The translations under genes and the position numbers were made by a program. The notes beneath the pieces were generated by a model. The model searched no databases. It was not told where the DNA came from and saw nothing but the letters and a program-made list of their open reading frames with translations. From the NCBI GenBank assembly GCA_030536755.1, contig JAUNPJ010000022.1, positions 1 through 48,527 on the forward strand: DNA of 48,527 bases, given 5' to 3'. Below are positions 11,005 through 48,389 of the stretch, in pieces. The stretch is from Eubacteriales bacterium. GTDB taxonomy: Bacteria > Bacillota > Clostridia > Lachnospirales > Lachnospiraceae. Positions within the stretch are counted from its first letter, which is position 1; each line of letters opens with the position of its first letter.

Positions 11005-11036
11005 TTTGTTTTCCTCCATTTTTTATTGTTTACTTG

Positions 11037-30511: not shown

Positions 30512-30710
30512 GTGTTTCAACCTCCATATTTTGCTCGATTTTGCCAAGAAATGCCTTATTTCCAAGGGTTTGAGCATTTTCATGTTTTTATGCTCTTCTG
30601 GCGTATCTTAGCAAGATTTTGCATATCTTTTCCTTTGAGTGTGGGAAATTCAACTGGTTTTCCCACAGTTAGTCTGCCATGGATGAAATCCCTTAAAACT
30701 GCCTAAAACA
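30512..30710. other. left junction region of the integrative element
   Basis: About 200 bp without a gene between the phosphatase and the integrase end. It contains a hairpin with 8-bp arms (GTGGGAAA 30641-30648, TTTCCCAC 30659-30666) and the stretch AAACCCTTGGAAATAAGG on the minus strand (about 30556-30573). That stretch looks to me like the conserved core next to integrases of related elements. The left attachment site should be here, but its edges cannot be fixed without the right end. Confidence 0.4.
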
Positions 30711-31907: not shown

Positions 31908-31929
31908 ATGTGCTAACCTCCTTTTGAAC

Positions 31930-32005
31930 AGTATATCGCTTGCGATATACTCCGCTTAGAGAGCCTCTGCCATAGCACACAGTTAGTATATCATGAAGAG
32001 GCTCT
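31930..32005. repeat. two inverted repeats between xis and int
   Basis: AGTATATCGC (31930-31939) and GCGATATACT (31942-31951) form a tight 10-bp dyad. AGAGCCTCT (31960-31968) pairs with AGAGGCTCT (31997-32005) over a 28-base loop. Neither has a T-run. They may tune read-through from xis to int or bind a regulator. Confidence 0.55.
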
Positions 32006-32017
32006 TTGCGTAATCCC

Positions 32018-32224
32018 TTAAATTGCTGATGTTTTATCCAAAAATGACTCGAATTTTTTCCTCTTAATTTGGACACGATTGCCGTTATAAAGGATAAAAT
32101 CAGCACCTTCGTGGTCAGCCACAATCTGACGCAATTTCTTCTGCCCGATTCCAAAGTAATCCGCAGCCTGTTCTATACTTAATGAATATTTTTCAAAAAT
32201 CGGTGTTTCATAATTACGATTCAA
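32018..32224 (-). CDS. xis: Tn916-type excisionase
   Basis: 68 residues, very close in layout to Tn916 Xis (67): a PIFEKYSLSIEQAADYFGIG winged-helix beginning, QKKLRQIVADHEGADFILYNG and the basic end VQIKRKKFESFLD. The start is inferred to be TTG at 32224, with AAGGAGATACAT upstream; no ATG fits the family length. It directs excision by bending DNA at the element ends. The tandem xis-int order is as in Tn916. Confidence 0.88.
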   Translation of the reverse strand: MNRNYETPIFEKYSLSIEQAADYFGIGQKKLRQIVADHEGADFILYNGNRVQIKRKKFESFLDKTSAI

Positions 32225-32330
32225 ATGTATCTCCTTCACTTCCTTATTATGTTCTATTCCCCTTTGGCAACTGGCAGGCAGGCAAGGTATCCGGGAATTC
32301 TTACCAACCCGACCAGTGCCTTTGCCAAAC

Positions 32331-34298
32331 TCACTTCCTAAGACAAACTGTTTTCTTGGAATTCTCGAACCCATAATCCAGTTCGTCTTCTAATTTTCTT
32401 CTTGCATCTCGCATGGTTCGATCTGAGATTTTAAATTTCTTGCCCTCTGCATCCAAATCTGCCACGTACATAAGATTTCTTGTTGTCAGGACTTGTCTTA
32501 TCAATTTCATTGCCTGCTCCAACTTTGTCTCCTTCTGCTTTCCAGCTTTTCCTGACATCAATTCCTGCTCGGTGATTTCATATTCACCAATCCACTCCAA
32601 CTTACTGTTTTCCAATGTAAATGCGACCGGTGTAGGTTTTGGTGCCAGTGAACTTTTTGTTTGAATCACTACTCGCACATCCCTTTCGGTTTCTTTCTCC
32701 ACTTTTCCGACTAATAAAATACTTCTTACAGCAGCTGAAATATCTACCGATCCAAGACCTCGATAATTGGCATGTGTTCCGGCATTCTTATTCAAGTGTC
32801 CAATCAGAACAATTGCTGCACCTGTTCGTTCTGCCACTCCCCCTAGATATCGAAACAATGGACGAATCTCATTTGCTCTGTTCATATCCACATCCGGTCC
32901 AAGATAAGCCTGAATCGGATCCATGATTAGAAGCTTTACATTGTTCTGCTTAATTGCCAGTTCCAATCTCGGATCAGTAAGAGACAGCATGGCATCATCT
33001 TCTACAATGACACGCACACGTTCCATATCTGCTCCACATTGCATCAGCCTCGGTTTAATCGTATCTCCAATTCCATCTTCTGCGGTCTGGTAAAACACAT
33101 TGAAAGAATCCATCGGGAGCTCATTCGGCAGTTCCTTTCGATTGGTACACGCTGCAGCCAGATGCATGGCAAGCCATGTTTTTCCCTGTCCCGGATCACC
33201 CTGAATCAAAGTAACCTTTCCAAACGGAATAAACGGATACCATAACCATTCCACTACCGTCTCTTTAATCTCTGTCATCTTTCTGACTGGAATCATTTTT
33301 TCACCGGAACCCCGAAGTTCCACATCTGATATGTAATACTTCTCGCTCGGATCTCCACTTCGATTCATCAGCACTTCATTCCAATCTTTTTTGCTTGGCA
33401 CCAGTTGGTTCACTGCATATCGTGATGGAATCGCATCAAATAACTTAGCACATGCTTCATGACCGGCTTTATCATTATCCAGGCAGAGAATGATTTGTTC
33501 TACTTCAGAGCGTTCAGAAAGAAAAGTCTTAAGTGCTTTCGCACTGACTCCACCCAGTGACAAATAATGATTCTCATGCCAGTACTTTGGATAAAGTGTA
33601 ATAAAAGACAGTAGATCAATGGGCGATTCAAATACATACAACTTTCTCGCAGATCTTTTTCTTTGCTTATCCTCATCCCAGAATGCTACGCTTTTAAAAC
33701 CATATTCCTTTTGCGAGCCAGATACATCTCCACGTAATTGTTCTTCTCCTGCATTTCTCCAGCTGGCATATCGTGGATTACCTTCGGAGTCTCTACCAAC
33801 AAAAACAACTCTTTGATTGTCTTTCTCCTGGAAAATATCTCCTCGTTTGATAAATTCACTCACAATATCTTTATCCAGTTTTCGTTGATCAACCAGATAC
33901 TCCATAATGTAATCTTGATTCTCATCTGCTTCAGGAAGCGCCATCTCCTTTGTGGGGATGGGGGCTGCTACTGCAAAGCCACCATCCTCCACATAGGAAA
34001 CTGCCCTTTTCTCAGAAAAAGAGGTTTTCAAACCATCCATGGCTTCCTCTCCATCCAGTAATTCTTTTACTGCATCTGGAAAACTCAAGCCAAAAAACTC
34101 CATCATAAAATCAATCGGCCATCCACCTTTGCCCTGACTGTGCCGATACCATTTATTTTCACAAATGGTCACACTGTCATGCTTTTCCCAACGATATTCT
34201 CTGCCTGCTTTCTTGAAGCGTTCTCCTCTTGTAAAAAGAAATCGAACCAGATTCACTTCGTTAGCTCTTGCAATCTGATCCTCCGTATATTTTTCCAA
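32331..34298 (-). CDS. toprim/DUF3991 primase-like and RepA-type helicase fusion
   Basis: 655 residues. The N-terminal part resembles CHC2/DUF3991 (EYRWEKHDSVTICENKWY) with a toprim domain (FESPIDLLS about 224-232, LCLDNDKAGHEA about 271-282). From about 340 there is a RecA-fold hexameric helicase like RepA of RSF1010: Walker A GDPGQGKT (367-374), Walker B KLLIMDPIQAYLG and an IGHLNKNAG motif. It probably supports replication of the excised or transferred element. The start is TTG with GAAGGTG upstream; mobA ends 15 bp before it. Confidence 0.85.
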   Translation of the reverse strand: MEKYTEDQIARANEVNLVRFLFTRGERFKKAGREYRWEKHDSVTICENKWYRHSQGKGGWPIDFMMEFFGLSFPDAVKELLDGEEAMDGLKTSFSEKRAVSYVEDGGFAVAAPIPTKEMALPEADENQDYIMEYLVDQRKLDKDIVSEFIKRGDIFQEKDNQRVVFVGRDSEGNPRYASWRNAGEEQLRGDVSGSQKEYGFKSVAFWDEDKQRKRSARKLYVFESPIDLLSFITLYPKYWHENHYLSLGGVSAKALKTFLSERSEVEQIILCLDNDKAGHEACAKLFDAIPSRYAVNQLVPSKKDWNEVLMNRSGDPSEKYYISDVELRGSGEKMIPVRKMTEIKETVVEWLWYPFIPFGKVTLIQGDPGQGKTWLAMHLAAACTNRKELPNELPMDSFNVFYQTAEDGIGDTIKPRLMQCGADMERVRVIVEDDAMLSLTDPRLELAIKQNNVKLLIMDPIQAYLGPDVDMNRANEIRPLFRYLGGVAERTGAAIVLIGHLNKNAGTHANYRGLGSVDISAAVRSILLVGKVEKETERDVRVVIQTKSSLAPKPTPVAFTLENSKLEWIGEYEITEQELMSGKAGKQKETKLEQAMKLIRQVLTTRNLMYVADLDAEGKKFKISDRTMRDARRKLEDELDYGFENSKKTVCLRK

Positions 34299-34313
34299 CG
34301 CATCACCTTCTCT

Positions 34314-35852
34314 CTATAGTTCCATACCACGATTCCGTTTCTTTGGTTTCGCAGCTTCTCTTTGTTTTACTTCCACTTGTTTTTTCTCAAGTGCTTCTAA
34401 AACAGAGTTCTCATTTTTATCATCCAAAACAGATTCAATGTTTTTCTGTATCTTCTGATATGTTTTCAGCTCTCTGAACAGAGCATCTTTCTCTTCTTTC
34501 AATGTAGCTATCTCACCGGGTAAAACAGATTTATCGTATTCCCACTTATGAACCGGAACCTTTCCATCATCATTTCGTTTTTCCTGCAACACTCGCCTGG
34601 CACGATAATATCGATTCAGCTCTGACTTGTGTTCCTCTTTGTATTTCTCCTTAAACCATTTCTTCTGATTCAGCTCATCATATATCGGCTGCATTTTCTG
34701 ATATTCGTCCCAGGCATGGATTCCTTCTTTTGCTAAAAATAGCGTTGCTGCCTTGTCCTCTATTTCTTTCTTTTTCTCCCGAATTAATTTTTCTAATGAT
34801 TGCATCCTTGCTGTCAGTTCATCCGGAGTATCAATGTGTTCTCGCTGTAGAAATGAAATGATGGTTGTAAATTCTTTCAGATTTGTTGTCTTTGCCTTTT
34901 GTGTTCCATATGCAAATGTCTCTGCCACTTCATTTCTCTGCTCATAATATTCCATCAAATACTCTGCAATGGTAGGTTTCTTTGTAAGCAGCATTTTTTC
35001 CTGTAGCTGACCTTCCTGAAACATTGCTCTCCACAAAAGTTCTTTTGCATCTTGAAGCATCTGATTAAATTTACGGATCATTCGATTCAAGCTTCCAAGA
35101 GCAGTTTCCATTCCTTTTGCTTCTAGAGCTTGAACCGTTGGTCCTTCGTGAACGGTTGGTATCTGGTTCACACCAAGTTCTTCATAAGAACGCCAGTCTA
35201 CTCTTTGTGGCAAACCTTTTTCTTCATAAAGCTCGTTACACAGATCTGCCCATGCCTTCCGAAGCTCCATCAAAGTTTCCTTACTGCTCCAATCATTTAC
35301 CGGCACAGCTTTCATTTTTGGTTTGCCATTTTTATTTAAAACCGGTGTTCCATCTTCATTCAGAATCGGAATCTTTTTCTGCTTTACATCCCATGTCCCA
35401 TCTTCCTTTAAAGGACGGATTGGAACCATGATATGCATGTGAGGATTTGGTTCTTTATCATCTGATTGCTTTGGATCATGAATCGCCAGATCCACCATCA
35501 TACCTCGACTAACCAACTGTTCCCGGACAAATCTTCTTGCCAGTTCGATATTTTCTTCCATTGAAAATTCATTCATAAAAGCAATATCAAAACTGTGTGC
35601 CAGCTGTGCTTTCTTATTTGACTCTTCCCACTCCAGTTCATTCCAGAGAGTTTCTCTGTCTTTAAATCTTTCAGGAGCATGATCGGGCAAATGAATTTCT
35701 GAAAGAATCACTCCACCTTTTCTTGTGTAGTCATTTGTTTCTCCGTAATAACTACTGTAAAGTTTTTCACCGGAACGATATGCCGCACTTGCGATTGCTG
35801 ACTGTCCATGTCCTCTGGATAGCTGCGTTAAATGAAAATGATAACATCCCAA
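34314..35852 (-). CDS. mobA: MobA/MobL-type (MobQ) relaxase
   Basis: 512-residue DNA nicking enzyme. The N-terminal relaxase domain shows HFHLTQLSRGHGQSAIASAA, YRSGEKLYS (tyrosine region) and the metal-binding NPHMHIMVP; the C-terminal half is a long, charged coiled-coil-like region rich in Lys/Glu. It should nick the oriT at about 36332 and lead strand transfer. The start is TTG at 35852 with GAGGAGGAGTAAT upstream, one base after the stop of the DUF3847 gene. Confidence 0.9.
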   Translation of the reverse strand: MGCYHFHLTQLSRGHGQSAIASAAYRSGEKLYSSYYGETNDYTRKGGVILSEIHLPDHAPERFKDRETLWNELEWEESNKKAQLAHSFDIAFMNEFSMEENIELARRFVREQLVSRGMMVDLAIHDPKQSDDKEPNPHMHIMVPIRPLKEDGTWDVKQKKIPILNEDGTPVLNKNGKPKMKAVPVNDWSSKETLMELRKAWADLCNELYEEKGLPQRVDWRSYEELGVNQIPTVHEGPTVQALEAKGMETALGSLNRMIRKFNQMLQDAKELLWRAMFQEGQLQEKMLLTKKPTIAEYLMEYYEQRNEVAETFAYGTQKAKTTNLKEFTTIISFLQREHIDTPDELTARMQSLEKLIREKKKEIEDKAATLFLAKEGIHAWDEYQKMQPIYDELNQKKWFKEKYKEEHKSELNRYYRARRVLQEKRNDDGKVPVHKWEYDKSVLPGEIATLKEEKDALFRELKTYQKIQKNIESVLDDKNENSVLEALEKKQVEVKQREAAKPKKRNRGMEL

Positions 35853-35853
35853 A

Positions 35854-36204
35854 TTACTCCTCCTCTACAATTCCCTGTCTGCCCTGCACCATATCGGCTA
35901 CACGCAAATGAAACCGCAGCTCTGGAATATGCAACACTTCGTCCATCAATTCATAAAACTCCGATTCCATCAGATACTGTGTATCTTTGCAGATTGCTTC
36001 GATCGCAGCACCCTTAGTAATCAGACGATGTACTCTGGCCTTATCTTTTTTCTTTCTCTGGTAGGCGAGCTGATTTTCTGCCCGCCTAATACAATGCTCT
36101 GCCTGCAACTGCTTTAATCTTGCATCTTCAATCTGCTGTTTGATTTTTTCCTGTTCTCTTAAATTTTCTTCTCGATACTCTTCAAATGATTTCTTTCTTG
36201 CCAT
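35854..36204 (-). CDS. DUF3847 family mobilization accessory protein
   Basis: 116 residues, strongly charged and helical (REENLREQEKIKQQIEDA, coiled coil over about residues 8-55). This family is regularly found directly before MobQ relaxase genes in Firmicutes elements. It may act like MobC, helping the relaxase open the oriT, which lies just upstream of this gene. Function is inferred from context. Confidence 0.75.
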   Translation of the reverse strand: MARKKSFEEYREENLREQEKIKQQIEDARLKQLQAEHCIRRAENQLAYQRKKKDKARVHRLITKGAAIEAICKDTQYLMESEFYELMDEVLHIPELRFHLRVADMVQGRQGIVEEE

Positions 36205-36266
36205 ATGTAAATAACCTTTCTATAAAACTTTCTCTTCATCGGATTTCTAATCTGCAAAACCTTCTC

Positions 36267-36337
36267 TGAAATGACTTTCAGAACGATTCGCTCTGGAGAA
36301 CGCACATACTTTGCTAAAAGTATATAAGTGCGCTCTT
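36267..36337. other. candidate origin of transfer (MobQ type)
   Basis: Lies in the 150-bp gap between ssb and the mob genes. A hairpin with 7-bp arms (ATACTTT 36306-36312, AAAGTAT 36317-36323) is followed two bases later by TAAGTGCGCTCTT (36325-36337), which matches the conserved nic region of RSF1010/pGO1-type plasmids (TAAGTGCGCCCT). By analogy the nick falls between 36332 and 36333. A further dyad CTGAAA/TTTCAG sits at 36267-36282. The neighbouring relaxase is of the matching family. Confidence 0.78.
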
Positions 36338-36354
36338 CAGCCTTGCTTCAGAGA

Positions 36355-36774
36355 TTATTCAAACGGTAATTCTTCACCTTCCGGAACTTCCATGAATCCC
36401 TCACTGTCTGTTTTAGTTTCCTGTACATCATCTGCTTCAGCAGCTTTGCTTTCCGCAAAATAATGCTCATCTACAACGATCTCTGTGGTATAAACCTTCC
36501 TATCATCCTTACCGGTATAACTACCAGTCTGGATTCGGCCGCACACAGCAATTTTCATTCCCTTCTTCAACCACTTCATGGCAAACTCAGCCCCCTTGCC
36601 ATAAACCACACAATTGATAAAATCAGAAGCGGTGCTGTTGCTTCCACGATATCTACGATCAACTGCAAGCATGTACTTCACCATCAGAGTGTCACCGGAA
36701 CCTCCAACATATTTTGATTCGGGATTTCTTGTCAATCTTCCCATTAACTGAACCTTATTCATATAATTCACCAT
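36355..36774 (-). CDS. ssb: single-stranded DNA-binding protein
   Basis: 139-residue OB-fold protein: MNKVQLMGRLTRNPESKYV start, FINCVVYGKGAEFAMKWLKKG and ICGRIQTGSY-like segments, and an acidic tail ending in ELPFE that resembles the partner-binding DDDIPF tip. It is an element-borne copy that should coat the transferred strand. AAAGG precedes the ATG; MNKVQ four residues later is an alternative start. Confidence 0.93.
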   Translation of the reverse strand: MVNYMNKVQLMGRLTRNPESKYVGGSGDTLMVKYMLAVDRRYRGSNSTASDFINCVVYGKGAEFAMKWLKKGMKIAVCGRIQTGSYTGKDDRKVYTTEIVVDEHYFAESKAAEADDVQETKTDSEGFMEVPEGEELPFE

Positions 36775-37296: not shown

Positions 37297-37452
37297 ATTT
37301 CTATTCATGTCCAGAATGAAAATGAATTTGATGAAATAAATTATTCTCTAAATGCTCCTCTACCTATATGGGAATGGAAAAGGTCTTATACAACATTTTT
37401 TGATAAAAAGTTTCAAAAGTTTGCAAATTGTTATCCCTACCATCCCTTTTGA
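37297..37452 (+). pseudogene. remnant of an open frame in the 37.1-37.4 kb gap
   Basis: The gap between the small gene and the first silent hsdS cassette has no intact gene. A 51-codon open stretch here reads like real protein (FDEINYSLNAPLPIWEWKRS, then FDKKFQKFANCYPYHPF) but has no start codon or ribosome site, and an upstream stop precedes it. It may be the end of a gene broken when the RM locus was joined to the element. I could not identify it. Confidence 0.3.
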
Positions 37453-37481
37453 ATAATTACCTATACACTTTTTATACCGAT

Positions 37482-37546
37482 AATTTGCATTATGAGAAGT
37501 TCCCTGATAGCAGCGTAAAATGTATTGAAGATGAGATACCGTTTGA
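37482..37546 (+). repeat. IR1, silent copy (65-bp inverted repeat)
   Basis: Identical over 65 of 65 bases to the reverse complement of 41623-41687 in the active hsdS. Both copies are read in the same codon frame (NLHYEKFPDSSVKCIEDEIPF), so inversion exchanges everything after residue ~66 of HsdS in frame. Confidence 0.97.
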
Positions 37547-38225
37547 GTTGCCTGCGGGGTGGAGTTGGGCAAGAATATTTTCCATAACAGAAGAGCTTCC
37601 ATATGGTACCGCAAAAAAATCATCACCGACAGGTCTTGTTGCTGTATTGCGTATGGGAAATATTCAATCCGGTGAAATTGACTATTCAGATCTTGTGTAT
37701 TCCTCAGATAGAGATGATATTGTAAAGTATACTCTTATAAAAAATGACTTGCTTTTTAATAGAACCAACAGTGCAGAATGGGTAGGTAAAACCGCTATTT
37801 ATCGTGGAAATATGCCGGCTATCTATGCAGGCTATCTCATCAGGATAAGAACTTTTATTAATGCAGAATACTTGAATGTAGTAATGAATAGCGGTTATGC
37901 AAAGTCGTATTGCAATTCAGTAAAAACTGATGGTGTAAATCAGTCGAACATCAACGCACAGAAATTAGGCAATTTCTTGGTCCCAATTCCATCTTTCGGT
38001 GAGCAACACCGTATTTCATCAAATATTGCTGACATTCTTCCAAGAATTTCGATAATTCAAGATGAAAAAGACTATATAACAGATTTGATACAGAAAACGA
38101 AATCAAAAATCCTCGATCTCGCCATTCGTGGTAAGCTTGTACCACAAAATCCGGATGACGAGCCTGCTTCTGTTCTATTGGATCGTATCCGTGCTGAGAA
38201 AGAAGAACTCATCAACCAGGGAAAA

Positions 38226-38284
38226 ATCAAGCGTGATAAGAAGGAATCTGTCATCTTCCGTGGTGAGGATAACTCTTATTATGA
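38226..38284 (+). repeat. IR2, silent copy (59-bp inverted repeat)
   Basis: Identical over 59 of 59 bases to the reverse complement of 40906-40964 in the active hsdS, in frame (IKRDKKESVIFRGEDNSYY). It lies in the central conserved spacer, and weaker similarity extends ~120 bp upstream. Inversion here swaps only the second TRD. Confidence 0.97.
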
Positions 38285-38841
38285 TGACATCCCGGATGGC
38301 TGGGAAATCTGTTATCTTGGAGAGCTCTTTAATGTTTGTTCTGCTAAACGTGTCAAACAATCTGATTGGCGCACTGAAGGTGTTCCATTTTATCGAGCAC
38401 GTGAAATAGTAAAGCTATCCAATAATGATTTTGTAGATAATGAATTGTATATTTCTGAAGACCATTATCAGCAAGTAAAAAAAGAATATGGTATCCCTCA
38501 ACCAGGAGATTTAATGGTTTCGGGTGTTGGGACAATTGGTAAAGTATACGTTGTAAAAGATACAGATCATTTTTATTATAAAGATGCAAGTGTACTTTGT
38601 TTTGAAAATAGAAATGGGATTATCGATTCTCAATATGCTAAATATATGTTAATGTCTGAATTTATTCAGAACCAAATGAGAGAAAACTCCAAGGGAACAA
38701 CGGTAGATACAATAACTATTTCTGCTGCAATGAATTATATTTGCTTCGTCCCTCCGGCAAATGAGCAAAAACGTATTGTTTCAGCTATAGAACAAATTTT
38801 GAATCATCTAAAAATCATAGAATTGGCATTGTTGTAATTTT

Positions 38842-38875
38842 CAGCCGCCTTCGTTGCGAGGGCGGCTGTTCTTTT
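38842..38875 (+). terminator. terminator between silent hsdS and the recombinase gene
   Basis: CAGCCGCC (38842-38849) pairs with GGCGGCTG (38861-38868) with extra pairs inside, followed by TTCTTTT. It separates the converging cassette and recombinase gene. Confidence 0.8.
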
Positions 38876-39683
38876 ACCATGTTACAATTTTATCTACAAG
38901 TGCTTGCTGTTCGCTGGCGGTACGTCGCAAATATATACGAGTGGTTTCGATGCTTTCATGTCCCATAAGGTCGGCAAGCAAAGCAATATCATTGTACTTT
39001 TCGAGAAAATTCTTTGCATAACGATGGCGGAAAGAATGAGGATAAACCACTTTTTTATCAAGCCCATATTTATCGGCATAATTCTTTAATTGCTGTGAAA
39101 TACCACGGGTGGTGATGCGATCTCCATAACGGTTTAAAAACAAATAACCGGAAGAACGTCCTGTTTCCTCCAGCCATGCTATAGTTTCTTCTCTCAATTT
39201 CTTAGGAATAAACAATCGACGAAGCTTTCCACCTTTCGTATACAAATCAAAGTAACCAAGTTCCACATGTTCGATTTTGATGTGAATAAGCTCGCTAACA
39301 CGGGCTCCGGTAGCAGCGAGATACCAAACGACAAAATACCACTCCATATTCCCATCTTTCTTCAACTGACGTTTCAAAAATTTGTAATCGGCATTGCTGA
39401 TTACATTTTCCAAAAAGCTTTTTTGTTGGATTTTTACAGCTTTGAGCCTGAGTTGTGGTTTTCCAAGATAATCAAGATACTTGTTCATAGCCTGTATTCT
39501 CAGATTAACTGTTTTGGGCTTAAATCGTTCCATCAGAAAACCTTTGTACGCAAGCAAATTTTCTGACGATACATGTTCATAGTTTGCAGTAAAATAATTG
39601 ACTGTCCACAGGTAAGAGTCGATAGTGTTTTCTGTGAGATTCTCTTTTTTCAGATATTCCTCAAATGTAATTTTTGTCTTCAT
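38874..39683 (-). CDS. tyrosine recombinase of the hsdS inversion system
   Basis: 269-residue XerC/D-like recombinase. N-terminal SAM-like core-binding domain (residues 1-85), catalytic domain with Arg in GARVSELIHI, HSFRHRYAKNF (His-x-x-Arg), LMGHESIETT and the nucleophile Tyr in RIYLRRT. It lacks the arm-binding domain of the element's Int, as expected for a DNA invertase acting on short sites. It lies between the silent hsdS cassettes, like the recombinases of the pneumococcal ivr/SpnIII locus, and inside the segments that IR1 and IR2 invert. GGAGGTGTC precedes the ATG. Confidence 0.9.
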   Translation of the reverse strand: MKTKITFEEYLKKENLTENTIDSYLWTVNYFTANYEHVSSENLLAYKGFLMERFKPKTVNLRIQAMNKYLDYLGKPQLRLKAVKIQQKSFLENVISNADYKFLKRQLKKDGNMEWYFVVWYLAATGARVSELIHIKIEHVELGYFDLYTKGGKLRRLFIPKKLREETIAWLEETGRSSGYLFLNRYGDRITTRGISQQLKNYADKYGLDKKVVYPHSFRHRYAKNFLEKYNDIALLADLMGHESIETTRIYLRRTASEQQALVDKIVTW

Positions 39684-39736
39684 AAAAAGACACCTCCATG
39701 ATTTATTTGCGATAATTCGCTGAATAAATTATAGCG

Positions 39737-40336
39737 GTGCAATGTGTGAAATCCTCTTATTATGAGAAGATTAGTGATATAACAGAAAATATTGATGATA
39801 TTATTCCATTTGAAATTCCAGTCACATGGCAGTGGTGCAGAGGTTATACTTGTTTTGCAGGAATGGAAAGCAAAAAACCTACAGGTGACTTTTTTGATTA
39901 TATTGATATTGACTCTATTGATAACAATAATCACAAAATCAAAGAGCCCAAACATATTCCTGTTTCTGAGGCGCCAAGCCGTGCCAATAGAGCAGTACAG
40001 AATGGAAGTGTCTTATTTTCGCTTGTGAGACCGTATCTTGAAAATATCGCACTTATTGATGAAAAATATTCTAACAGTATTGCATCAACGGGCTTTTATG
40101 TTTGCAATTCTACAGGTGCACTATATCCTGTATATATGTTTTTCTTAATGGTCTCAGGATATGTAGTAAAAGGGTTAAATCGATTCATGAAAGGTGATAA
40201 TTCGCCATCCATTAACAAGGACAATATAGAAAATTGGTTATATCCTATTCCACCATTTGAGGAACAAAAGATAATTTGTCAAAAAATAAAATCGATGTTC
40301 TCCGAAATTGAAGTAATAGAAAAAAGCCTCAGCTGA
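39737..40336 (+). pseudogene. silent hsdS half cassette (third version of TRD2)
   Basis: 199 codons matching only the last part of an HsdS: the short shared beginning SSYYEKI, one TRD (PFEIPVTWQWCRGYT to YPIPPFEEQKIICQKI) and the C-terminal helix ending IEKSLS. The 16 bases 39754-39769 equal the reverse complement of 40902-40917 in the active gene, in frame. Its last codons overlap those of the active gene in a perfect palindrome. Inversion would give a 515-residue HsdS with this TRD as the second domain. It has no convincing start signals of its own. Confidence 0.85.
39754..39769 (+). repeat. 16-bp short inverted site before the third TRD2
   Basis: CTCTTATTATGAGAAG here is found inverted at 40902-40917 in the active hsdS. 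The core ATTATGAGAAG also occurs in both IR1 copies, so it may be the recombinase recognition core. Confidence 0.75.
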
Positions 40337-40349
40337 GGCTTTTTTCTAT
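40316..40349. repeat. 34-bp perfect palindrome shared by two converging hsdS ends
   Basis: 17-bp perfect arms with no spacer. Read on either strand it encodes the C-terminus (I)EKSLS and the stop, so the active gene and the half cassette end with the same residues in the same DNA. With its A-run and T-run it should also work as a two-way terminator. It is close to the symmetry centre of the 16-bp inverted sites. Confidence 0.9.
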
Positions 40350-41882
40350 GTCACGCAATCGAGACAATAGTTCACTAATTCTATTTACAATTCTTTCTTG
40401 CTCCGATATTGGAGGAAACGGAATTAAGGCTCTCTTCAACATGTCCTGAGTTAGCTGATTGATGGCTGTAGAATTTCCATCGTCAAATACATTTCTGAAT
40501 TGACTTGAACGCAGATAGTGCAAAACATATTTGTAATAATCTGTTTTATAAACAGCCATAAATGCACCAAAGGATGCAGGTTCTTTTAGTTCATCAATGA
40601 GTGCACATTTCCCAACCAATGCCTTGCTACCATTTCTTGCGCATATTAGAATATCATTAGGCTGAACATACTGATTTTCTCGTATTTTCGTTTTTACACG
40701 GACCAAATCATTCAAATCTATTTCATCATCAACGATATTGTTTGAACGCAAAACCATTGTGCCAGTAGGATCAATGTCTGTTGGTCTATACGTAAGGCCG
40801 ATATTAGTTGTTCCAATCATTGATAGATTACACCATTCCCATCCATCTGGCAATTCAAATGGTAACTCATCTTCAATGGAACGGCATTTACCATCAGAGA
40901 ACTTCTCATAATAAGAGTTATCCTCACCACGGAAGATGACAGATTCCTTCTTATCACGCTTGATCTTTCCTTGCTTGATGAGTTCTTCTTTCTCTGCGCG
41001 AATGTGTTCCAGAAGAACAGAAGCCGGTTCGTCATCTGGGCTCTGAGGGACAAGCCGGCCACGAATAGCAAGGTCAAGAATCTTCGACTTTGTGATTTGA
41101 ATAATTTCTTTCAGATCACCTTTATTACTATCTATATCGTCAATAATGTGAAGTGAATTGTCTGTACTTTTACATATTTTCTCTTGCTCACTGAGAGGAG
41201 GTAGTGGCAAGTAGGCCCCCAATACAATTTCGCGACGAATTCCTGGAATAATTCCATTTGCCTGTGCTGTAATATCACTGAGCATTGCAGAGATCGCTAT
41301 ATACAGATATTGAGGCGTAATAGCATTTGTACATCTTAGAGCCATGATCTGCCTTGCAATATGGGCATCTATAATATCACAAAAAGCCATCTTACCTACG
41401 CCGGATCCTTTAACCGTCAGAAGAAGATCGCCTATGGTTGCGTGCGTTGTAGGTGTAGTAGTCCAGCGATTGATAATAACCTTCCCGTGTTCAAGATTAC
41501 TTGCTCCTGTTATATACGGAATACCCTCGCCAATATCATTGTACCGATTAGGAGTTAAGTCTTGTCCTGAATATAGTTCAATTACATCTGCGTAATGGCA
41601 CCACGCCCATCCCTCCGGCACATCAAACGGTATCTCATCTTCAATACATTTTACGCTGCTATCAGGGAACTTCTCATAATGCAAATTGTCCTCACCAACA
41701 AAGATAACGGAATCATTTTTAATGTCTTTCTTTTTTAGCTTTCCTTCCTTAACCATCTGTTGCTTCTGTTCACGGATTCTTTCCAAAAGAACCGATGCCG
41801 GTTCATCATTCGGATCCTGCGGAACAAGCTTACCACGGATAGCAAGGTCAAGAATCTTTTGTCGTAATGCCTTGGTATCCAT
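40329..41882 (-). CDS. hsdS: type I restriction-modification specificity subunit HsdS (expressed copy)
   Basis: 517 residues that choose the DNA target for the HsdM/HsdR complex. Layout: N-terminal conserved helix region (ILDLAIRGKLVPQDPNDEPAS), TRD1 (about 90-245), central conserved region repeating the N-terminal one (ILDLAIRGRLVPQSPDDEPAS, from about 268), TRD2 (about 335-500) and the end EKSLS. It is the only hsdS-like sequence with a proper start: ATG at 41882 shares its A with the hsdM stop. IR1 spans residues ~66-87 and IR2 residues ~307-326, which makes both TRDs exchangeable. Confidence 0.95.
   Translation of the reverse strand: MDTKALRQKILDLAIRGKLVPQDPNDEPASVLLERIREQKQQMVKEGKLKKKDIKNDSVIFVGEDNLHYEKFPDSSVKCIEDEIPFDVPEGWAWCHYADVIELYSGQDLTPNRYNDIGEGIPYITGASNLEHGKVIINRWTTTPTTHATIGDLLLTVKGSGVGKMAFCDIIDAHIARQIMALRCTNAITPQYLYIAISAMLSDITAQANGIIPGIRREIVLGAYLPLPPLSEQEKICKSTDNSLHIIDDIDSNKGDLKEIIQITKSKILDLAIRGRLVPQSPDDEPASVLLEHIRAEKEELIKQGKIKRDKKESVIFRGEDNSYYEKFSDGKCRSIEDELPFELPDGWEWCNLSMIGTTNIGLTYRPTDIDPTGTMVLRSNNIVDDEIDLNDLVRVKTKIRENQYVQPNDILICARNGSKALVGKCALIDELKEPASFGAFMAVYKTDYYKYVLHYLRSSQFRNVFDDGNSTAINQLTQDMLKRALIPFPPISEQERIVNRISELLSRLRDIEKSLS
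40902..40917 (-). repeat. 16-bp short inverted site, active copy
   Basis: Reverse complement of 39754-39769, in the codons for SYYEK just before TRD2 of the active hsdS. It overlaps the end of IR2 by 12 bases, so both TRD2 swaps use nearly the same point. Confidence 0.75.
40906..40964 (-). repeat. IR2, active copy
   Basis: Reverse complement of 38226-38284 without mismatch; encodes IKRDKKESVIFRGEDNSYY in the central spacer of HsdS. Confidence 0.97.
41623..41687 (-). repeat. IR1, active copy
   Basis: Reverse complement of 37482-37546 without mismatch; encodes the residues just before TRD1 of HsdS. Confidence 0.97.
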
Positions 41883-43312
41883 TATTCTTCCACCTCTCCA
41901 ATTAATGCTTCCAGTTCTGCAACTGCCTTTGCTATGTTATTAGACTTTTCCTTGATCATATCAAGTAATTCTGCCAGAGTATAATCATCTGTTCCGGAAT
42001 CAGCTTTCATCCATGTAATATCCAGACTTGTTTTATCACGAGCCAAAATATCTTCAATAGTGAATTTACGCCATCTGCCGTTTGGATTATCTTCGCTGTA
42101 CGTTTCTTTACGCTTGCTCAGATCACCATCTGCATAGCATTCCACAAAATCATCAAAATGTTCTGATTTCAAAGGATTTGTCTTACCGAAAGAAGGCATT
42201 TCATTTCTCAGGTCATAAATCCACACTTCTTTTGTGTTATGCTTATCAGTTTTTCCACGTGTAAAGAACAATACATTAGTTTTAACGCCCTGCGCATAGA
42301 AAATACCGGTAGGAAGACGCAAAATTGTATGCAGATTACATTTGTCCATCAAGTCAAGACGGATACGCTCACCATCGCCGTCAGCAAACAAGACATTATC
42401 CGGCAGTACTACTGCAGCACGTGCTTTACCGTTAGTTTTCAAACTACGGTAAATATGCTGAAGGAAATTCAGCTGTTTATTGCTGGTAGGAAATGTAAAG
42501 TCATCACGTGTCGCACGCTCACCGCCTTTTTTTGTACCAAAAGGTGGATTTGTCAATACAACATCATAATCTTTCATGCTCATGCCTACACTGGACAAAG
42601 TATCGCCTAAAATGATTTTGCCGTCGATGTCATGCAGCATGGCATTCATCAAAGCCAAACGGTGTGTATCATGTACCAGTTCACAACCTGTAAACGCTTC
42701 TTCTCTTTCAAATTTAGCCATATCTGCATCCAGATCAAAGAAATCATCTGTCTGTGAACGAACATACTGGCTTGCAGAAATCATAAAGCCAAAAGTACCG
42801 CAAGCAGGATCATTACAACGTTCACCCGGCTGTGGCTTCACCAATTTGGTCATAACATCAATCAGTACACGTGGTGTGAAATACTGACCTGCGCCGGATT
42901 TCTTTTCGTTAGCGTTCTTTTCCAAAAGGCCTTCGTAAAGATTGCCAAGACCTTCTTCCCTCGCTGAAAACCAATCCAGCCCGTCAATGGTTGTAATGAT
43001 TTTTTCAAGGTTTTTAGGCTCATCAATATTTGTTGACGCACCTTGATAAATTTCACGGACACGTCCTGTACAGTTTTCCCCAAGATGAGCAAGTAATTCT
43101 TTATAGAACTTTTTCAGCTCAATACCACTCTTGGATGTGAGATTGTCCCAACGATAGGCTTCCGGGATCTGGGATTCAGCACCAGTTTCCTTCGCCATTT
43201 TCAGAAACAAAATATATGTTAATTCGGTTACATACTGATGATATGTGATACCATCATCTCTGAGTACATTACAGAGATTCCAAAGCTTTGAAACAATTTC
43301 TTGTGTTGTCAT
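41882..43312 (-). CDS. hsdM: type I restriction-modification DNA methyltransferase HsdM
   Basis: 476-residue N6-adenine methyltransferase. N-terminal helical domain (QEIVSKLWNLCNVLRDDGITY), SAM-binding motif I DPACGTFGF (168-176) and catalytic motif IV NPPFGTKKG (from 255); the AGQYFTPR loop before motif I is typical of HsdM. The C-terminal helix contacts HsdS. It overlaps hsdR by 4 bp (ATGA) and hsdS by 1 bp, so the three are translated as one coupled operon. It also protects host DNA, so the methylome should change with each hsdS inversion. Confidence 0.96.
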   Translation of the reverse strand: MTTQEIVSKLWNLCNVLRDDGITYHQYVTELTYILFLKMAKETGAESQIPEAYRWDNLTSKSGIELKKFYKELLAHLGENCTGRVREIYQGASTNIDEPKNLEKIITTIDGLDWFSAREEGLGNLYEGLLEKNANEKKSGAGQYFTPRVLIDVMTKLVKPQPGERCNDPACGTFGFMISASQYVRSQTDDFFDLDADMAKFEREEAFTGCELVHDTHRLALMNAMLHDIDGKIILGDTLSSVGMSMKDYDVVLTNPPFGTKKGGERATRDDFTFPTSNKQLNFLQHIYRSLKTNGKARAAVVLPDNVLFADGDGERIRLDLMDKCNLHTILRLPTGIFYAQGVKTNVLFFTRGKTDKHNTKEVWIYDLRNEMPSFGKTNPLKSEHFDDFVECYADGDLSKRKETYSEDNPNGRWRKFTIEDILARDKTSLDITWMKADSGTDDYTLAELLDMIKEKSNNIAKAVAELEALIGEVEE

Positions 43313-46300
43313 GCAACTCTACCTCCGTCATCATAAAGATACTCATTCAATTCAAGTACGATATTTTCCAGTTTATTCTGGAATACTTTGTTGATTTTTG
43401 CAAATCCTCCGTAACTCTTAAAACGACTATCTTCATCAAATACCTGGACGTTCAACACGGATTCTTCCATCAAATATTTTTCCATACGTCCAATCCAGCT
43501 CATCTCCTGTTTTGAGAAGTTATGAGCTTTTTTCAATTTGTCTACTGCTCTGCGTATTCTTGCTTCATGGCTGATCAATGCAGAACCAATAGCATATCTG
43601 CGAATAAGACTGATAATATCAGCGGCAATTTCTTCATTGGTAAGCTCTGATATTGCCGTATTCAACTGTTGTGTAGTAAATCCCTCTCTATCGAGAGTTA
43701 ATCTTAACGATTTCAGCGCATCTCTTGTCAGATCTTTTGGTCTGGTACAAACAATGCTCAACGCAGCAATCTCATTCATATGAGTCTTAACATATTCAGA
43801 GAAAGCATCAAGATAATCTTCCGGTTTATCGGAATTACCGTATCCTCTTGTATGTCCGGTCAAAATATCTTTTTCGTCAGAAATAACTACTGGATTACCT
43901 CCATTCGCCTTTGTTTGCTGAATATATGTAAACATTTCTCTATATGCCAACAGACGTTTTTTTGCATCTTCAGGATTTCGCTTTTCGATGTCTATAATGA
44001 ACTGGGTTGGATCCATACCATCGGTCATACTGATAAACTGCTCCATAGTCTTGTCGTCCATACGGCGTTTTTTACGCTGGAGTTTTGCAATAATCTGGTT
44101 AATCTGAGCCCGTATTACCTCCTTGTCTTTCACTTCTTCTAGGCCATCCAGAATCTGTGTAAAAGTAGTAGTCGGATTAGTTACGACAGGCTTCATAGTA
44201 TTTACCGGTTCCAGAGAATCATAAACACCAACAGGATCATAAATCTCAAAATGAGTTTTATGAATCTTAGGACACAATCTGGTAGCTCGTCCCATCATCT
44301 GTTCAAAGAGGATACGAGATTTTACTCTGCGCATAAATACCAGTGTTGTAATTTCCGGTACATCAATACCAGTTGTAAGTAAATCAACCGTAACAGCTAT
44401 ACTAGGAAATCTCTCGTTTTTAAAACGCTTGATTGCTTCTGCTACTTTCTTAGGATTACCACCACCTACACTGCCAGTAATCTTCATAATAGCATCATTG
44501 TCAACACCAGTTTCTGAATAGATTTCCTTTAGAATAGAAACAATCATATCTGCGTGCTGGTCATCAACGGCATAAATAAGAGTCTTTCCTTGTTCTTCAG
44601 GATTTTCAGGGTCTATATCTCTTGCAATCTCAGTCAGCACAGTTCTGTTGAAATTCTCTGTAATAACCTGTTTATTGAAATTTTCAATATCAAAATCCAG
44701 TTCATCTTCCAACAATTCGCTATTTGTTATTTCTCCGGTATTAGGATCATAAATCGTAACTGTCTGACCTTTCTTAATATGAATACCGCCCGTGCTGAGT
44801 TTTGTTTCCAGATGATGTGGTGCATCATGGTCTACCAGATATCCTTCTATGACAGCTTCTCTATATGTATATTTGAATACTGGCTGTCCAAAAATTTCTG
44901 TTGTATGTAATGCGGGTGTCGCAGTAAGTGCGATTTTTACAGCGTCAAAATATTCTACTACTGTACGGTATTTACTCTGATAATCACGCTGGTCACGATA
45001 CAGAATTTCTATATCGCCCATTTCTTTATCCAAAATATAACCACGATGTGCCTCGTCAATAATAATCAAGTCAAAATCTGTTACTGCTGGCATTACATCA
45101 CTTTCGTTATAAAGGATACGTTTTACCATGCTCTGAACAGTAGCGACCTGAATACGAGTTTCTTTATCTACTGTTTTCTCATCTAATCCCTTAATATTAT
45201 AGATTTCATCAAGAGTCATCAGTTCTTCAAGTTTTACTTCTTTAAAAACATCTGAAGCCTGATCTCCCAGAGAAGTTCTATCGACAAGGAACAAAATACG
45301 CTTGAAACGATTTGTCTTTAAAAATCGATAAATCATGCCAAGAACAGTACGAGTTTTACCTGTACCTGTTGCCATTGCAATCAGCACTTCTCTCTGTCCA
45401 TCAATAACTGCTTTTTCGGCTGCTTTGATCGCTTTCACCTGATATTCACGCAGATTCAGACCATCTTTATCTGTTAATAAGTCATACGGCATTGCCTGCA
45501 ACGCATCATTACCCGCCTGAATATCCTTTTCCAATCGTTCCATAATACCATTCGGGCTAATCCAGCCATGCAATGCCATAGGAGCATTAGACGGTTCTCT
45601 TAAATCCAAAAACCAGATACCTGATTTCGTTTTGAACTGTTCCAAATAAGGTCTGCCATTTGTTGCAAATGTAAGCGGAACCTTAAACTCTCCCCACGTA
45701 CCAATCTGATATTCAGCATCTTCTTTACGAATATTTCTCGGATAATCTTTACCCTGATAATCAATTACAGATGGAATATCTTTATGTTCAGCTTTCGCCT
45801 CAATAATACCAACAAGTTTTGTTCCCACAAACAACGTATAATCTGCATAGCCTTTTTTGCTAACAGTAGAATCTGTTGGCCATTCAGCAATCGCCATGTT
45901 ATGACCTTTTGCAGGTCTTGCACCTTTTGAATAGCGGATTTCCTGCGTATTGGCTTCCCAGCCAACCTGGCGCAGCTGCTCATCAATCATATAGCGAGTT
46001 TCAGCCTCAGACTTTTGACGTTGACTTGCCATTTTATTTGCCTGTTTCAGACGAACTTTCTTATCAACCTGTTCCGCCCGTTCAGCACATGCAATTGCAG
46101 CTTTTGTAAGCTCTTCCTCTTTTTCTTCTTCCTGAGTTTTATTGAAAACAACAATCTTTTCTGTTTTCTTTTCTTCCTTTACAGGCATAACAAAATCCCG
46201 ATGCTGATAATTCCAGTCACCATATGTCTGCATAAACCATTCAGCCAAACTATATGTCATCTGTAAGAAAACAGGACAATCTGATGCTTCTGAATAATTT

Positions 46301-46587
46301 TCATGAACAGCTTTATTTCTTACTTTACGAAGTGCATGCAAAATGTCAGTTAAATCTCTTGTTAAGAGGCCTTCCGAAGATAATACATTGATTCGATTCA
46401 CTGCAGAGTTATCATAAGGAACAGGAATCTTATCGTAAGTAAACATCAGATTTACGATTGTTTCTCCAATCATTCCCAGTTTCATCAAGCACGAGTTCGG
46501 ATCTGTGTAACAATACTGCTCTGCTAAATTCCCAAAATTCGCCAAAACCGGAAATTCTGTTTCTAAAAATTTAAAATTGGAAGCCAT
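43309..46587 (-). CDS. hsdR: type I restriction endonuclease subunit HsdR
   Basis: 1092 residues, EcoEI/EcoAI-like. N-terminal DUF4145-like domain (about 1-125), nuclease domain with Asp249 (GYADYTLFV) and IIEAK (Glu263-x-Lys265), then the SF2 motor with Walker A ATGTGKT (406-412), DEAH (511-514) and ILFEQMMGRATRL as motif VI, and a C-terminal EcoEI-type helical domain. All key residues are present, so it should cut. GAGGGGGACG lies before the ATG. First gene of the operon. Confidence 0.95.
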   Translation of the reverse strand: MASNFKFLETEFPVLANFGNLAEQYCYTDPNSCLMKLGMIGETIVNLMFTYDKIPVPYDNSAVNRINVLSSEGLLTRDLTDILHALRKVRNKAVHENYSEASDCPVFLQMTYSLAEWFMQTYGDWNYQHRDFVMPVKEEKKTEKIVVFNKTQEEEKEEELTKAAIACAERAEQVDKKVRLKQANKMASQRQKSEAETRYMIDEQLRQVGWEANTQEIRYSKGARPAKGHNMAIAEWPTDSTVSKKGYADYTLFVGTKLVGIIEAKAEHKDIPSVIDYQGKDYPRNIRKEDAEYQIGTWGEFKVPLTFATNGRPYLEQFKTKSGIWFLDLREPSNAPMALHGWISPNGIMERLEKDIQAGNDALQAMPYDLLTDKDGLNLREYQVKAIKAAEKAVIDGQREVLIAMATGTGKTRTVLGMIYRFLKTNRFKRILFLVDRTSLGDQASDVFKEVKLEELMTLDEIYNIKGLDEKTVDKETRIQVATVQSMVKRILYNESDVMPAVTDFDLIIIDEAHRGYILDKEMGDIEILYRDQRDYQSKYRTVVEYFDAVKIALTATPALHTTEIFGQPVFKYTYREAVIEGYLVDHDAPHHLETKLSTGGIHIKKGQTVTIYDPNTGEITNSELLEDELDFDIENFNKQVITENFNRTVLTEIARDIDPENPEEQGKTLIYAVDDQHADMIVSILKEIYSETGVDNDAIMKITGSVGGGNPKKVAEAIKRFKNERFPSIAVTVDLLTTGIDVPEITTLVFMRRVKSRILFEQMMGRATRLCPKIHKTHFEIYDPVGVYDSLEPVNTMKPVVTNPTTTFTQILDGLEEVKDKEVIRAQINQIIAKLQRKKRRMDDKTMEQFISMTDGMDPTQFIIDIEKRNPEDAKKRLLAYREMFTYIQQTKANGGNPVVISDEKDILTGHTRGYGNSDKPEDYLDAFSEYVKTHMNEIAALSIVCTRPKDLTRDALKSLRLTLDREGFTTQQLNTAISELTNEEIAADIISLIRRYAIGSALISHEARIRRAVDKLKKAHNFSKQEMSWIGRMEKYLMEESVLNVQVFDEDSRFKSYGGFAKINKVFQNKLENIVLELNEYLYDDGGRVA

Positions 46588-46657: not shown

Positions 46658-47317
46658 TTAAAATCCTATTCGAGCTCTAATATCATTTAACCATTCGCCT
46701 TTATATTTAAAAAATCTTGGACCTGCAATTGAATATTTCTTCCCAGATATGAGTTTTGCAGCAGCCGTCAGCGACATTTCTTTTCCTTGATATTCAACTT
46801 TCCTATCACCGACAACCTTACACTTAATATTTGGATCATCATAGTATTCAATTTCTTCTCCCACAGGAATCTGACATTTGATAAAGGAAAAGTTCTCCGC
46901 TTTTTCATGGCTTTCTGTGTCAATTTCCTGCGCCAACTGTTCCTCCTGTGCTTCTACATCACTCAGAGCAACTAATCTCAGATTCTCTTTACAATCATGG
47001 ATTTCTGCCATTGCCTCCAAAATTGCATAGGCTTCTTCCGGCTTCATTGCGTAGAATTCACGGATCCTTTTCTGGCCATTAAAGTCATCAATAGATCGCA
47101 AGTCTGGATTCAGCTTATCAATAATCGTATGTAGCTTCAAATCTGACAATCTTGAGTTCACTTCATACGTCGCATATACTCGGAACGCAAACGGAATACA
47201 CTCACTGCGATTTAATTGCTTCAATCTTTTATTTATATCATCTGCATAACCTATTTTCACATAATCTGGGAAAGACGGATTTGTGAGGATGTATATTACC
47301 CCTCTTTTATCACTCAT
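46658..47317 (-). CDS. GIY-YIG/T5orf172-type nuclease-like protein with RAMA-like C-terminus
   Basis: 219 residues. The N-terminal ~110 match the T5orf172 branch of GIY-YIG nucleases (VIYILTNPSFPDYVKIGYADD, then LKLHTIIDKLNPDLR and IREFYAM). The C-terminal 60 (KVEYQGKEMSLTAAAKLISG ... FFKYKGEWLNDIR) look like a RAMA/DUF4357 module, often linked to restriction and modified-DNA recognition. It may be a modification-related nuclease serving the RM locus. It lies between fic and hsdR on the same strand. Activity is not proven. Confidence 0.78.
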   Translation of the reverse strand: MSDKRGVIYILTNPSFPDYVKIGYADDINKRLKQLNRSECIPFAFRVYATYEVNSRLSDLKLHTIIDKLNPDLRSIDDFNGQKRIREFYAMKPEEAYAILEAMAEIHDCKENLRLVALSDVEAQEEQLAQEIDTESHEKAENFSFIKCQIPVGEEIEYYDDPNIKCKVVGDRKVEYQGKEMSLTAAAKLISGKKYSIAGPRFFKYKGEWLNDIRARIGF

Positions 47318-47447: not shown

Positions 47448-48338
47448 TTAATAAGCAATCTTGAAATAGTCCAAATACGTTTTATATTTATCCTGTGCGG
47501 TCAGACAGGTATCAGTCAAATAACCCTTTTCATTATTCCATTCTTTCAATCCTCGGTAGTAGAACATTTTCAGATTATCCTCAATGATAAACGGAACAAT
47601 ATTATATTTCAGGCATTCTTTGAACATAATCAATCTACCTACACGACCGTTGCCATCCTGGAACGGATGGATTCGCTCAAACTTCACATGGAAGGCCAGA
47701 ATATCTTCAAAGGTCTTTTCTTCCTTGGAATTGTATTCTACTAATAGCACTTTCATCTTATCGGCAACTTCTTCCGGAATGGCGGTATCCATACCACCAA
47801 CCTCATTTGGAAGTTTCTTGTAGTCGCCAACAGCGAACCAATCTTTTCTGGAATCGCTGGTTCCGTTCTTTAAAATTAGATGAAGCTCTTTGATAAACTT
47901 CTCTGTCAAAGCGGCTTTCGCATTATCAATAATCATATCAATGCAACGGAAATGATTTGCCGTTTCAATCACATCGTCAACATTGAGAACTTCATTTTCT
48001 ACACCAATCGTGTTGGTTTCAAAAATATACCTGGTCTGATCGTGAGTCAAACGGCTTCCTTCAATATGGTTGGAATTGTACGTTAAATCAATCTGTGTCT
48101 TATGGTAAATGCCTCCGGAATACTTACTTACTTTCTGTTCCTGCAGAATATCAAGCAAAGTAATAGGCTGTTCTTTCTTCTTGTTGGAACGCTCCGGTTT
48201 TTCTGCATTTTCAGGAATATTCCAAGTCTTGCCGGTAAGAAAGGCACCATTTACACGCCCATGTGCACAGTAGTTTCTAACACTGCGTTCCGACACATCC
48301 CATTTTTTTGCTATTTCAGCAACTGAAAGGTATCGCAT
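47448..48338 (-). CDS. class II Fic family protein (probable AMP-transferase)
   Basis: 296 residues. N-terminal helix-turn-helix-like domain (YLSVAEIAKKWDVSERSVRNY), then an inhibitory motif SNHIEG at 89-94 ([S/T]xxxE[G/N], class II self-inhibition) and the Fic core with HPFQDGNGRVGR at 224-235 (catalytic His, phosphate-binding GNGR). It should transfer AMP to a protein target unless held off by Glu93. Fic genes are often seen inside type I RM loci; here it lies upstream of hsdR. Start 48338 has GGAGGAG upstream; ATG at 48362 is a weaker choice. Confidence 0.9.
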   Translation of the reverse strand: MRYLSVAEIAKKWDVSERSVRNYCAHGRVNGAFLTGKTWNIPENAEKPERSNKKKEQPITLLDILQEQKVSKYSGGIYHKTQIDLTYNSNHIEGSRLTHDQTRYIFETNTIGVENEVLNVDDVIETANHFRCIDMIIDNAKAALTEKFIKELHLILKNGTSDSRKDWFAVGDYKKLPNEVGGMDTAIPEEVADKMKVLLVEYNSKEEKTFEDILAFHVKFERIHPFQDGNGRVGRLIMFKECLKYNIVPFIIEDNLKMFYYRGLKEWNNEKGYLTDTCLTAQDKYKTYLDYFKIAY

Positions 48339-48389
48339 CTGCTCTCCTCCGTTATAAATCAAATCTATATTTACATTTTACTACAGTAT

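Follow-up and report, generated by a model that had tools for sequence, protein, structure and literature searches.

A probable six-way hsdS switch with a PsrA-like recombinase in a Lachnospiraceae contig, and a candidate spacer code at its crossover sites

A type I restriction-modification (RM) locus with several copies of the specificity gene hsdS and a recombinase gene is found in contig JAUNPJ010000022.1 (positions 1-48,527, forward strand) of assembly GCA_030536755.1 (3.84 Mb), from a Eubacteriales bacterium of the Lachnospiraceae. The window, as the term is used here, is this whole stretch of 48,527 nucleotides. On the minus strand, hsdR (43309-46587) encodes a restriction endonuclease subunit of 1092 amino acids (aa), which scores above the cut-off of NCBIfam NF008521 and has the Pfam domain EcoEI_R_C, and hsdM (41882-43312) encodes the 476 aa N6-adenine methyltransferase subunit (Pfam N6_Mtase and HsdM_N). 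The hsdS gene on the same strand (40329-41882, 517 aa) was recognized by Pfam Methylase_S and by alignment to EcoKI HsdS (2y7c); its start shares one base with the end of hsdM. This copy, which adjoins hsdM and carries the target recognition domains (TRDs) TRD1a and TRD2a, is the only complete hsdS that is aligned with hsdRM; its position is termed the expressed slot.

Two silent cassettes lie on the plus strand, and both match Methylase_S and have in-frame fusions. The TRD1b + TRD2b cassette (37479-38837) shows hsdS homology from 37479 within an open reading frame of 469 aa (37428-38837). The half cassette TRD2c (39754-40336) begins at a 16 bp site, within an open reading frame of 199 aa (39737-40336). 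Between the two cassettes, on the minus strand, is the gene for a 269 aa tyrosine recombinase of the PsrA family (38874-39683; Pfam Phage_integrase). Thus the arrangement reported in the initial annotation, with one minus-strand hsdS, two plus-strand cassettes and a recombinase between them, is indeed present.

The recombinase is 67.3% identical, over 98% of its length, to a Streptococcus dysgalactiae protein annotated as 'tyrosine-type DNA invertase PsrA'; it is this protein, not the pneumococcal one, that was used for the comparison. It has the motif residues R128, K150, H216, R219, H242 and Y251, which we take to be catalytic. A XerC/XerD role in dimer resolution was considered and rejected, the scores being 97.7 and 93.2 bits against NCBIfam equivalog cut-offs of 335 and 330.

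Three inverted repeat pairs of 65, 59 and 16 bp, the two longer of which are listed as perfect in the initial annotation, are exact and lie at the positions given there. The 65 bp repeat is found at 37482-37546 (silent, plus strand) and 41623-41687 (expressed, minus strand), with a 16 bp core, TTTGCA+TTATGAGAAG, at 37484-37499 and 41670-41685. The 59 bp repeat is found at 38226-38284 (silent, plus strand) and, as an exact repeat, at 40906-40964 (expressed, minus strand). The shortest pair consists of the 16 bp site CTCTTA+TTATGAGAAG, at 39754-39769 in the half cassette (plus strand, ∼70 bp upstream of the recombinase start) and at 40902-40917 in the expressed hsdS (minus strand), where it overlaps the 59 bp repeat. 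Read in the HsdS direction, the layout is a left arm, a 6 bp spacer and TTATGAGAAG. The silent 59 bp site deviates from this: its spacer, CTCTTA, is at 38273-38278, but the outer right arm is missing (TTATGATGACA); this end of the repeat (38273-38284) lacks the outer part of the core, of which only ATTATGA is present. Both TRD1 sites thus carry the spacer TTTGCA, and the three TRD2 sites all carry CTCTTA.

The sequence ATTATGAGAAG occurs four times in the window where 0.06 copies are expected. In the 3.84 Mb assembly, exact copies of the 16-mer of the 16 bp sites are found only at its two places in the locus (letter-reversed control, 0). Therefore the repeat sites are not a product of chance. 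The crossover site would consist of the 6 bp spacer and the 10 bp arm, and this putative site presumably resembles dif in layout (ATAA / 6 bp / TTAT). The core ATTATGAGAA is found at four of the five window sites and is one letter off the pneumococcal core ATTATGGGAA.

All three inversions are in frame, as the initial annotation had proposed. In silico they yield HsdS proteins of 516 aa (65 bp repeat), 509 aa (59 bp repeat) and 515 aa (16 bp site), compared with 517 aa in the present arrangement. When inversion at sites of the same spacer is iterated in silico, eight arrangements and six HsdS proteins result (517, 516, 509, 515, 524 and 522 aa).

The architecture is that of the pneumococcal cod / ivr / SpnIII (Spn556II) system with its recombinase PsrA (also IvrR, CreX), as the initial annotation had recognized. 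According to published work, eight arrangements arise in the pneumococcus by inversions at 15, 298 and 85 bp repeats (PMC4948785), six HsdS proteins are produced (PMC7394358), and a 10 bp core is present in all of the repeats (PMC6620402). Both loci have hsdRM, three hsdS copies of which one is expressed (presumably so in the window), a PsrA-family recombinase within the locus and three repeat pairs, the shortest measuring 15 bp in the pneumococcus and 16 bp in the window; both give eight arrangements and six alleles. The pneumococcal locus, compared by description rather than letter by letter, differs in its repeat lengths (85/298/15 there, 65/59/16 in the window) and in its core. The window locus is a real and probably active member of this kind. 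Further papers on such systems are PMC5903667 and PMC12324116. A REBASE survey names species of Ruminococcus as carriers of loci of this type (PMC7394358), and genes for HsdS, recombinases and relaxases are reported to be over-represented in an inverton group of gut bacteria (PMC11892184). The kind of locus has therefore been described before, as have its occurrence in gut bacteria and its proximity to mobilization genes. What is new is the site rule that emerges from comparison, rather than the locus itself.

Related loci, denoted by L numbers, include 80 from the genome_contigs set, and 27 relatives are represented by at least 20 kb of DNA. Searches for strain-level relatives at E ≤ 1e-110 gave 7 of 392 genomes at the level of the order and 1 of 391 at that of the class, each count including the window's own; one locus was found among viral_contigs. 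No near-identical sister strain was found in the order, class and viral_contigs searches, and plasmids of Enterococcus faecalis were used instead.

Spacers were compared in loci whose recombinase is at least 68% identical; L009-L014, which are short and include several duplicates, were left out. A strict rule requires an arm beginning with TTATGAG and allows no late matches in half genes. It was written after the exceptions to a looser rule had been seen, and by design it omits L041, L064, L046 and L047 as well as half-site copies that have no right arm. Under the strict rule, spacers agree within a class in 34/34 TRD1 pairs and 39/40 TRD2 sets, and they differ between the two classes in 44/45 loci. 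The single exception is L101, where the first hsdS is spread over two overlapping frames and had been put in the wrong class. The corresponding figures under the looser rule are 32/34 (shuffle mean 8.9), 43/46 and 50/51; we ascribe its exceptions to TTATG motifs that occur by chance within TRDs (in the four loci named above) and to the misfiled L101 gene. Between loci, TRD1 spacers agree in only 283 of 1378 comparisons. Among loci added after the rule had been formed, the two TRD1 spacers also agree in 19/19 in which two were read, eight of these being near-identical plasmids. In the E. faecalis locus L149, both TRD1 copies have TATCCA, while its near twins have TTTACA.

The 34 TRD1 pairs show no mismatch over the 16 positions of spacer and 10 bp arm; to the left of the spacer, differences number 24 in 135 letters over the nearest four bases and 161 in 224 over the preceding seven. 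In 31 pairs of half and free TRD2 copies, identity stops after ∼16 bp, and the four spacer mismatches (one each at positions 0-3) are as expected from the misfiled pair of L101. In 26 of the 80 genome_contigs loci the exact 16-mer CTCTTATTATGAGAAG immediately precedes the recombinase gene, the rest having variants or none. Comparison with relatives suggests that six letters serve as an address code and determine between which segments exchange is allowed. By analogy, this may correspond to the overlap identity seen with other tyrosine recombinases. Among the papers listed by literature searches, which covered few subscription papers, none was seen to treat spacer codes or half-sites of invertible hsdS genes, and those listed for the letters TTATGAGAAG were unrelated by title.

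Two further observations concern the spacers. In L140, L142 and L144 the last spacer letter is C rather than A in both classes (GAAACC, CTCTCC), apart from one chance match within a TRD, and a variant recombinase with a site of its own may be at work there. In addition, 16 of 41 TRD families are found in both TRD1 and TRD2 slots, though a spacer code should forbid such movement; the sites listed in this connection are 37489-37499, 39759-39769, 40902-40912 and 41670-41680.

Relatives are found in alternative arrangements. Where the recombinase lies inside the array and hsdM is present (31 loci, window included), it is oriented opposite to hsdM in 17 and in the same direction in 14. Thirteen other loci, with hsdS on one side of the recombinase only (some through a cut contig), show 11 same and two opposite orientations. 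On an HsdM tree of 28 loci there are 10 orientation changes against a shuffle mean of 9.36, so orientation carries no trace of descent. In L039 (recombinase 97% identical), the segment corresponding to 39754-40917, with TRD2a and TRD2c, is inverted relative to the recombinase, and both ends are at the 16 bp site. In L040 (96%), TRD1b occupies the expressed slot. Nine E. faecalis plasmid records, closely related to one another and with a recombinase 71% identical to that of the window, were compared with L148 as reference. Block 7823-8858 of L148 is inverted in five of the eight others, and L154 additionally has 11028-12038 inverted. The hsdRM genes are on the other side in three (L149-L151) of the seven other plasmids whose stretch includes hsdM. 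These inverted blocks are at least 99% identical, and each end coincides with a listed site or is no more than ∼20 bp away from one. Relatives thus occur in either orientation and have cassettes in different slots, in keeping with the ivr/SpnIII-type layout.

It is very probable that a PsrA-like recombinase reshuffles hsdS into six versions. The enzyme would cut and rejoin DNA at short sites within the hsdS coding sequence, each made of a 6 bp spacer and the TTATGAGAAG arm, and recombination would take place between inverted pairs of equal spacer. TRD1 would be exchanged with the silent cassettes at TTTGCA sites and TRD2 at CTCTTA sites. With eight arrangements and six HsdS proteins, sister cells of the window strain might methylate and restrict different DNA motifs; the benefit may lie in phage defence, in gene regulation or in both.

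Several points weigh against this explanation. The evidence for movement comes from relatives; the window strain itself is known in a single arrangement, and no alternative hsdS arrangement was found elsewhere in its own assembly. Orientation differences between species represent change over evolution and are no measure of rate. The silent 59 bp site has no outer right arm, and TRD2b exchange may therefore be rare or proceed by another route. In the pneumococcus, loss of CreX (PsrA) stopped the exchange at the 15 bp repeat and reduced one other, with that at the 85 bp repeat being unaffected (PMC6620402), although purified PsrA is reported to invert all three pneumococcal repeats in vitro (PMC7096588).

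The silent cassettes might instead be an evolutionary store, with exchange only by rare RecA-dependent recombination and no programmed switching. The long similar linkers (233 bp at 79%) would suit such exchange, and the occurrence of TRD families in both slots indicates that slow domain movement does occur. But the identity of half and free TRD2 copies ends after a stretch that is too short for ordinary homologous recombination, the recombinase gene is open with its motif residues kept, and orientation does not follow descent. A store of this type is improbable. It is even less probable that the arrangement is locked and the repeats are relics. The single arrangement in the assembly and the degenerate silent 59 bp site would be explained in this way, but not the letter-perfect 65 bp and 16 bp sites, the open frames and the retained motif residues, nor the mixed states of relatives. 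A third reading retains switching by recombination, but assigns it to the host XerC/D or to the integrase of a neighbouring element. The dif-like layout of the putative site and pneumococcal inversions that are partly CreX-independent are compatible with another enzyme. However, the exact 16-mer adjoins the recombinase gene in about a third of the genome_contigs loci, and 12 of the 27 relatives with at least 20 kb have the 16-mer, none of them with a homologue of the window integrase. An enzyme other than the PsrA-like recombinase is thus very unlikely.

The sites at 38279 and 39760 form the only direct pair of the same class in the window, and the pair encloses the recombinase gene. The half cassette has no left arm and the silent 59 bp site no outer right arm, and the two are therefore complementary half-sites. 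Among relatives, the TRD2 copy that converges on the recombinase 3′-end keeps its left arm and spacer but has mostly lost its right arm. Right-arm mismatches at 35 such sites number zero or one in two loci (L065, L067), two in two and at least three in 31; five of the 40 converging genes were left out of this count because no left arm was recognized. A right arm with at most two mismatches is present in 5/40 converging genes, 36/40 other full-length hsdS genes and 34/49 half genes. In L065 and L067 the recombinase has no half site next to it. For the association between half site and lost arm, a Fisher test applied post hoc gives p = 0.011 when half sites are scored manually and two of the 35 loci are left out; with automatic flags, intact copies number 2/8 without a half site and 0/27 with one (p ∼0.05 by hand).

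Perhaps the complementary half-site pair spares the recombinase gene from deletion, although the support is weak and post hoc. A strict half-site rule is contradicted by L064 and L068, which also have no half site and yet have lost the right arm, and a general rule by E. faecalis, where the recombinase lies between directly repeated sites that both retain their right arm. More simply, the converging TRD2 copy may be able to dispense with the right arm because its homology on the left is long. A two-part address code in PsrA-family switches, in which the spacer would restrict TRD1 to TRD1 and TRD2 to TRD2 and complementary half-sites would prevent self-deletion of the recombinase, is therefore put forward only tentatively, given the p value under automatic flags and the E. 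faecalis direct pairs.

Ruminococcus albus pRUMAL02 (recombinase 82% identical) and the E. faecalis plasmids share the recombinase family, the right arm and two spacer classes with the window, and pRUMAL02 has the same gene order. The E. faecalis loci differ in that their spacers are TTTACA or TATCCA, and CGCCTA, and that the recombinase is flanked at either end by half-cassette-like sites. In the window the half cassette diverges from the recombinase, whereas in seven Streptococcaceae loci (L135-L140, L144) the half gene and recombinase have the same direction. Invertible hsdS arrays of Bacteroidales (L084, L101-L104, L106, L112) resemble the window in the recombinase (68-73%) and in an arm that is the same or nearly so, with paired spacers TTCCTA/TTCCCA and CAAGTA. 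Unlike in the window, the recombinase lies outside the hsdS array, oriented as hsdM in 7/7. With the window locus, the pneumococcal-type six-way switch is extended to an anaerobe-type genome, the nearest switch relatives being mostly Clostridia. The notion of a core in all repeats is refined to a defined 16 bp site whose spacer lends itself to assay, and the rule derived from comparison would predict the hsdS segments that are able to invert in loci of the PsrA type.

In the course of evolution, hsdS and the recombinase gene appear to have moved as a block from one hsdRM partner to another. When 25 loci are classed by HsdR size, the recombinase tree has seven backbone changes (shuffle mean 9.07, minimum 7) and the HsdM tree two; the recombinase tree is weakly resolved, with 15 of 25 inner branches open. 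L050 and L061 are 95% identical in the recombinase and 42% in HsdM; the window and L061 are 96% identical in HsdM and 82% in the recombinase.

The switch adjoins mobilization genes on one side and candidate defence genes on the other. Genes for an integrase, an excisionase (Xis), a primase-like protein, a MobQ relaxase and a single-stranded DNA-binding protein (SSB) are together at 30711-36774. Those on the minus strand include the Tn916-type integrase (30711-31907; Pfam Integrase_DNA and Phage_integrase), the Tn916-type Xis (32018-32374; Pfam Tn916-Xis) and the relaxase (34314-35852; NCBIfam NF041496, above cut-off). A genome of the same genus has a 69%-identical integrase at the same place, and a 66 bp copy (89%) of 30474-30539 ∼5.9 kb further on; hence integration probably takes place in the 5′ part of a phosphatase gene (30047-30583), and the left element end would be near 30540. 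No second copy of the element-end stretch was found in the window or its own genome beyond partial matches of 15-22 bases. The suggestion in the initial annotation that the locus is carried on a mobilizable element is thus borne out as regards the adjoining genes and the same-genus target, but no far-side repeat enclosing the RM locus was found. Of the 27 relatives with at least 20 kb, none has homologues (≥35% identity, E ≤ 1e-8) of the window integrase, Xis, primase-like protein or SSB, and one (L050) has MobQ; the switch is therefore usually found in other surroundings. It is possible that the neighbouring mobilizable element carries it here. In L171 (9151-12565, corresponding to window 30426-36493), from the same family, element pieces 90-98% identical are in scrambled order and orientation and abut almost to the base, representing either an assembly error or a real rearrangement.

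A promoter scan was uninformative, with 34 promoter-like matches against a shuffle mean of 35.8, and the terms expressed and promoterless of the initial annotation are therefore putative. A terminator-like hairpin is present on the plus strand at 38842-38868, between TRD2b and the recombinase gene. A perfect palindrome of 34 bp (40316-40349) covers the shared C-terminal codons of the convergent TRD2a and TRD2c genes and possibly acts as a two-way terminator for both. The same 34 bp are found in L039 and nearly the same in L040, and similar, long palindromes occur in L042, L050, L053 and L059; at other junctions, palindromes are shorter, different or hardly present. Upstream of hsdR, and before the contig ends at 48527, are a T5orf172 gene (46658-47317) and a Fic gene (47448-48362), which PADLOC assigns to the candidate defence families PDC-S57 and PDC-S04. 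DNA similarity of the window to L040 and L041 extends through the T5orf172 gene.

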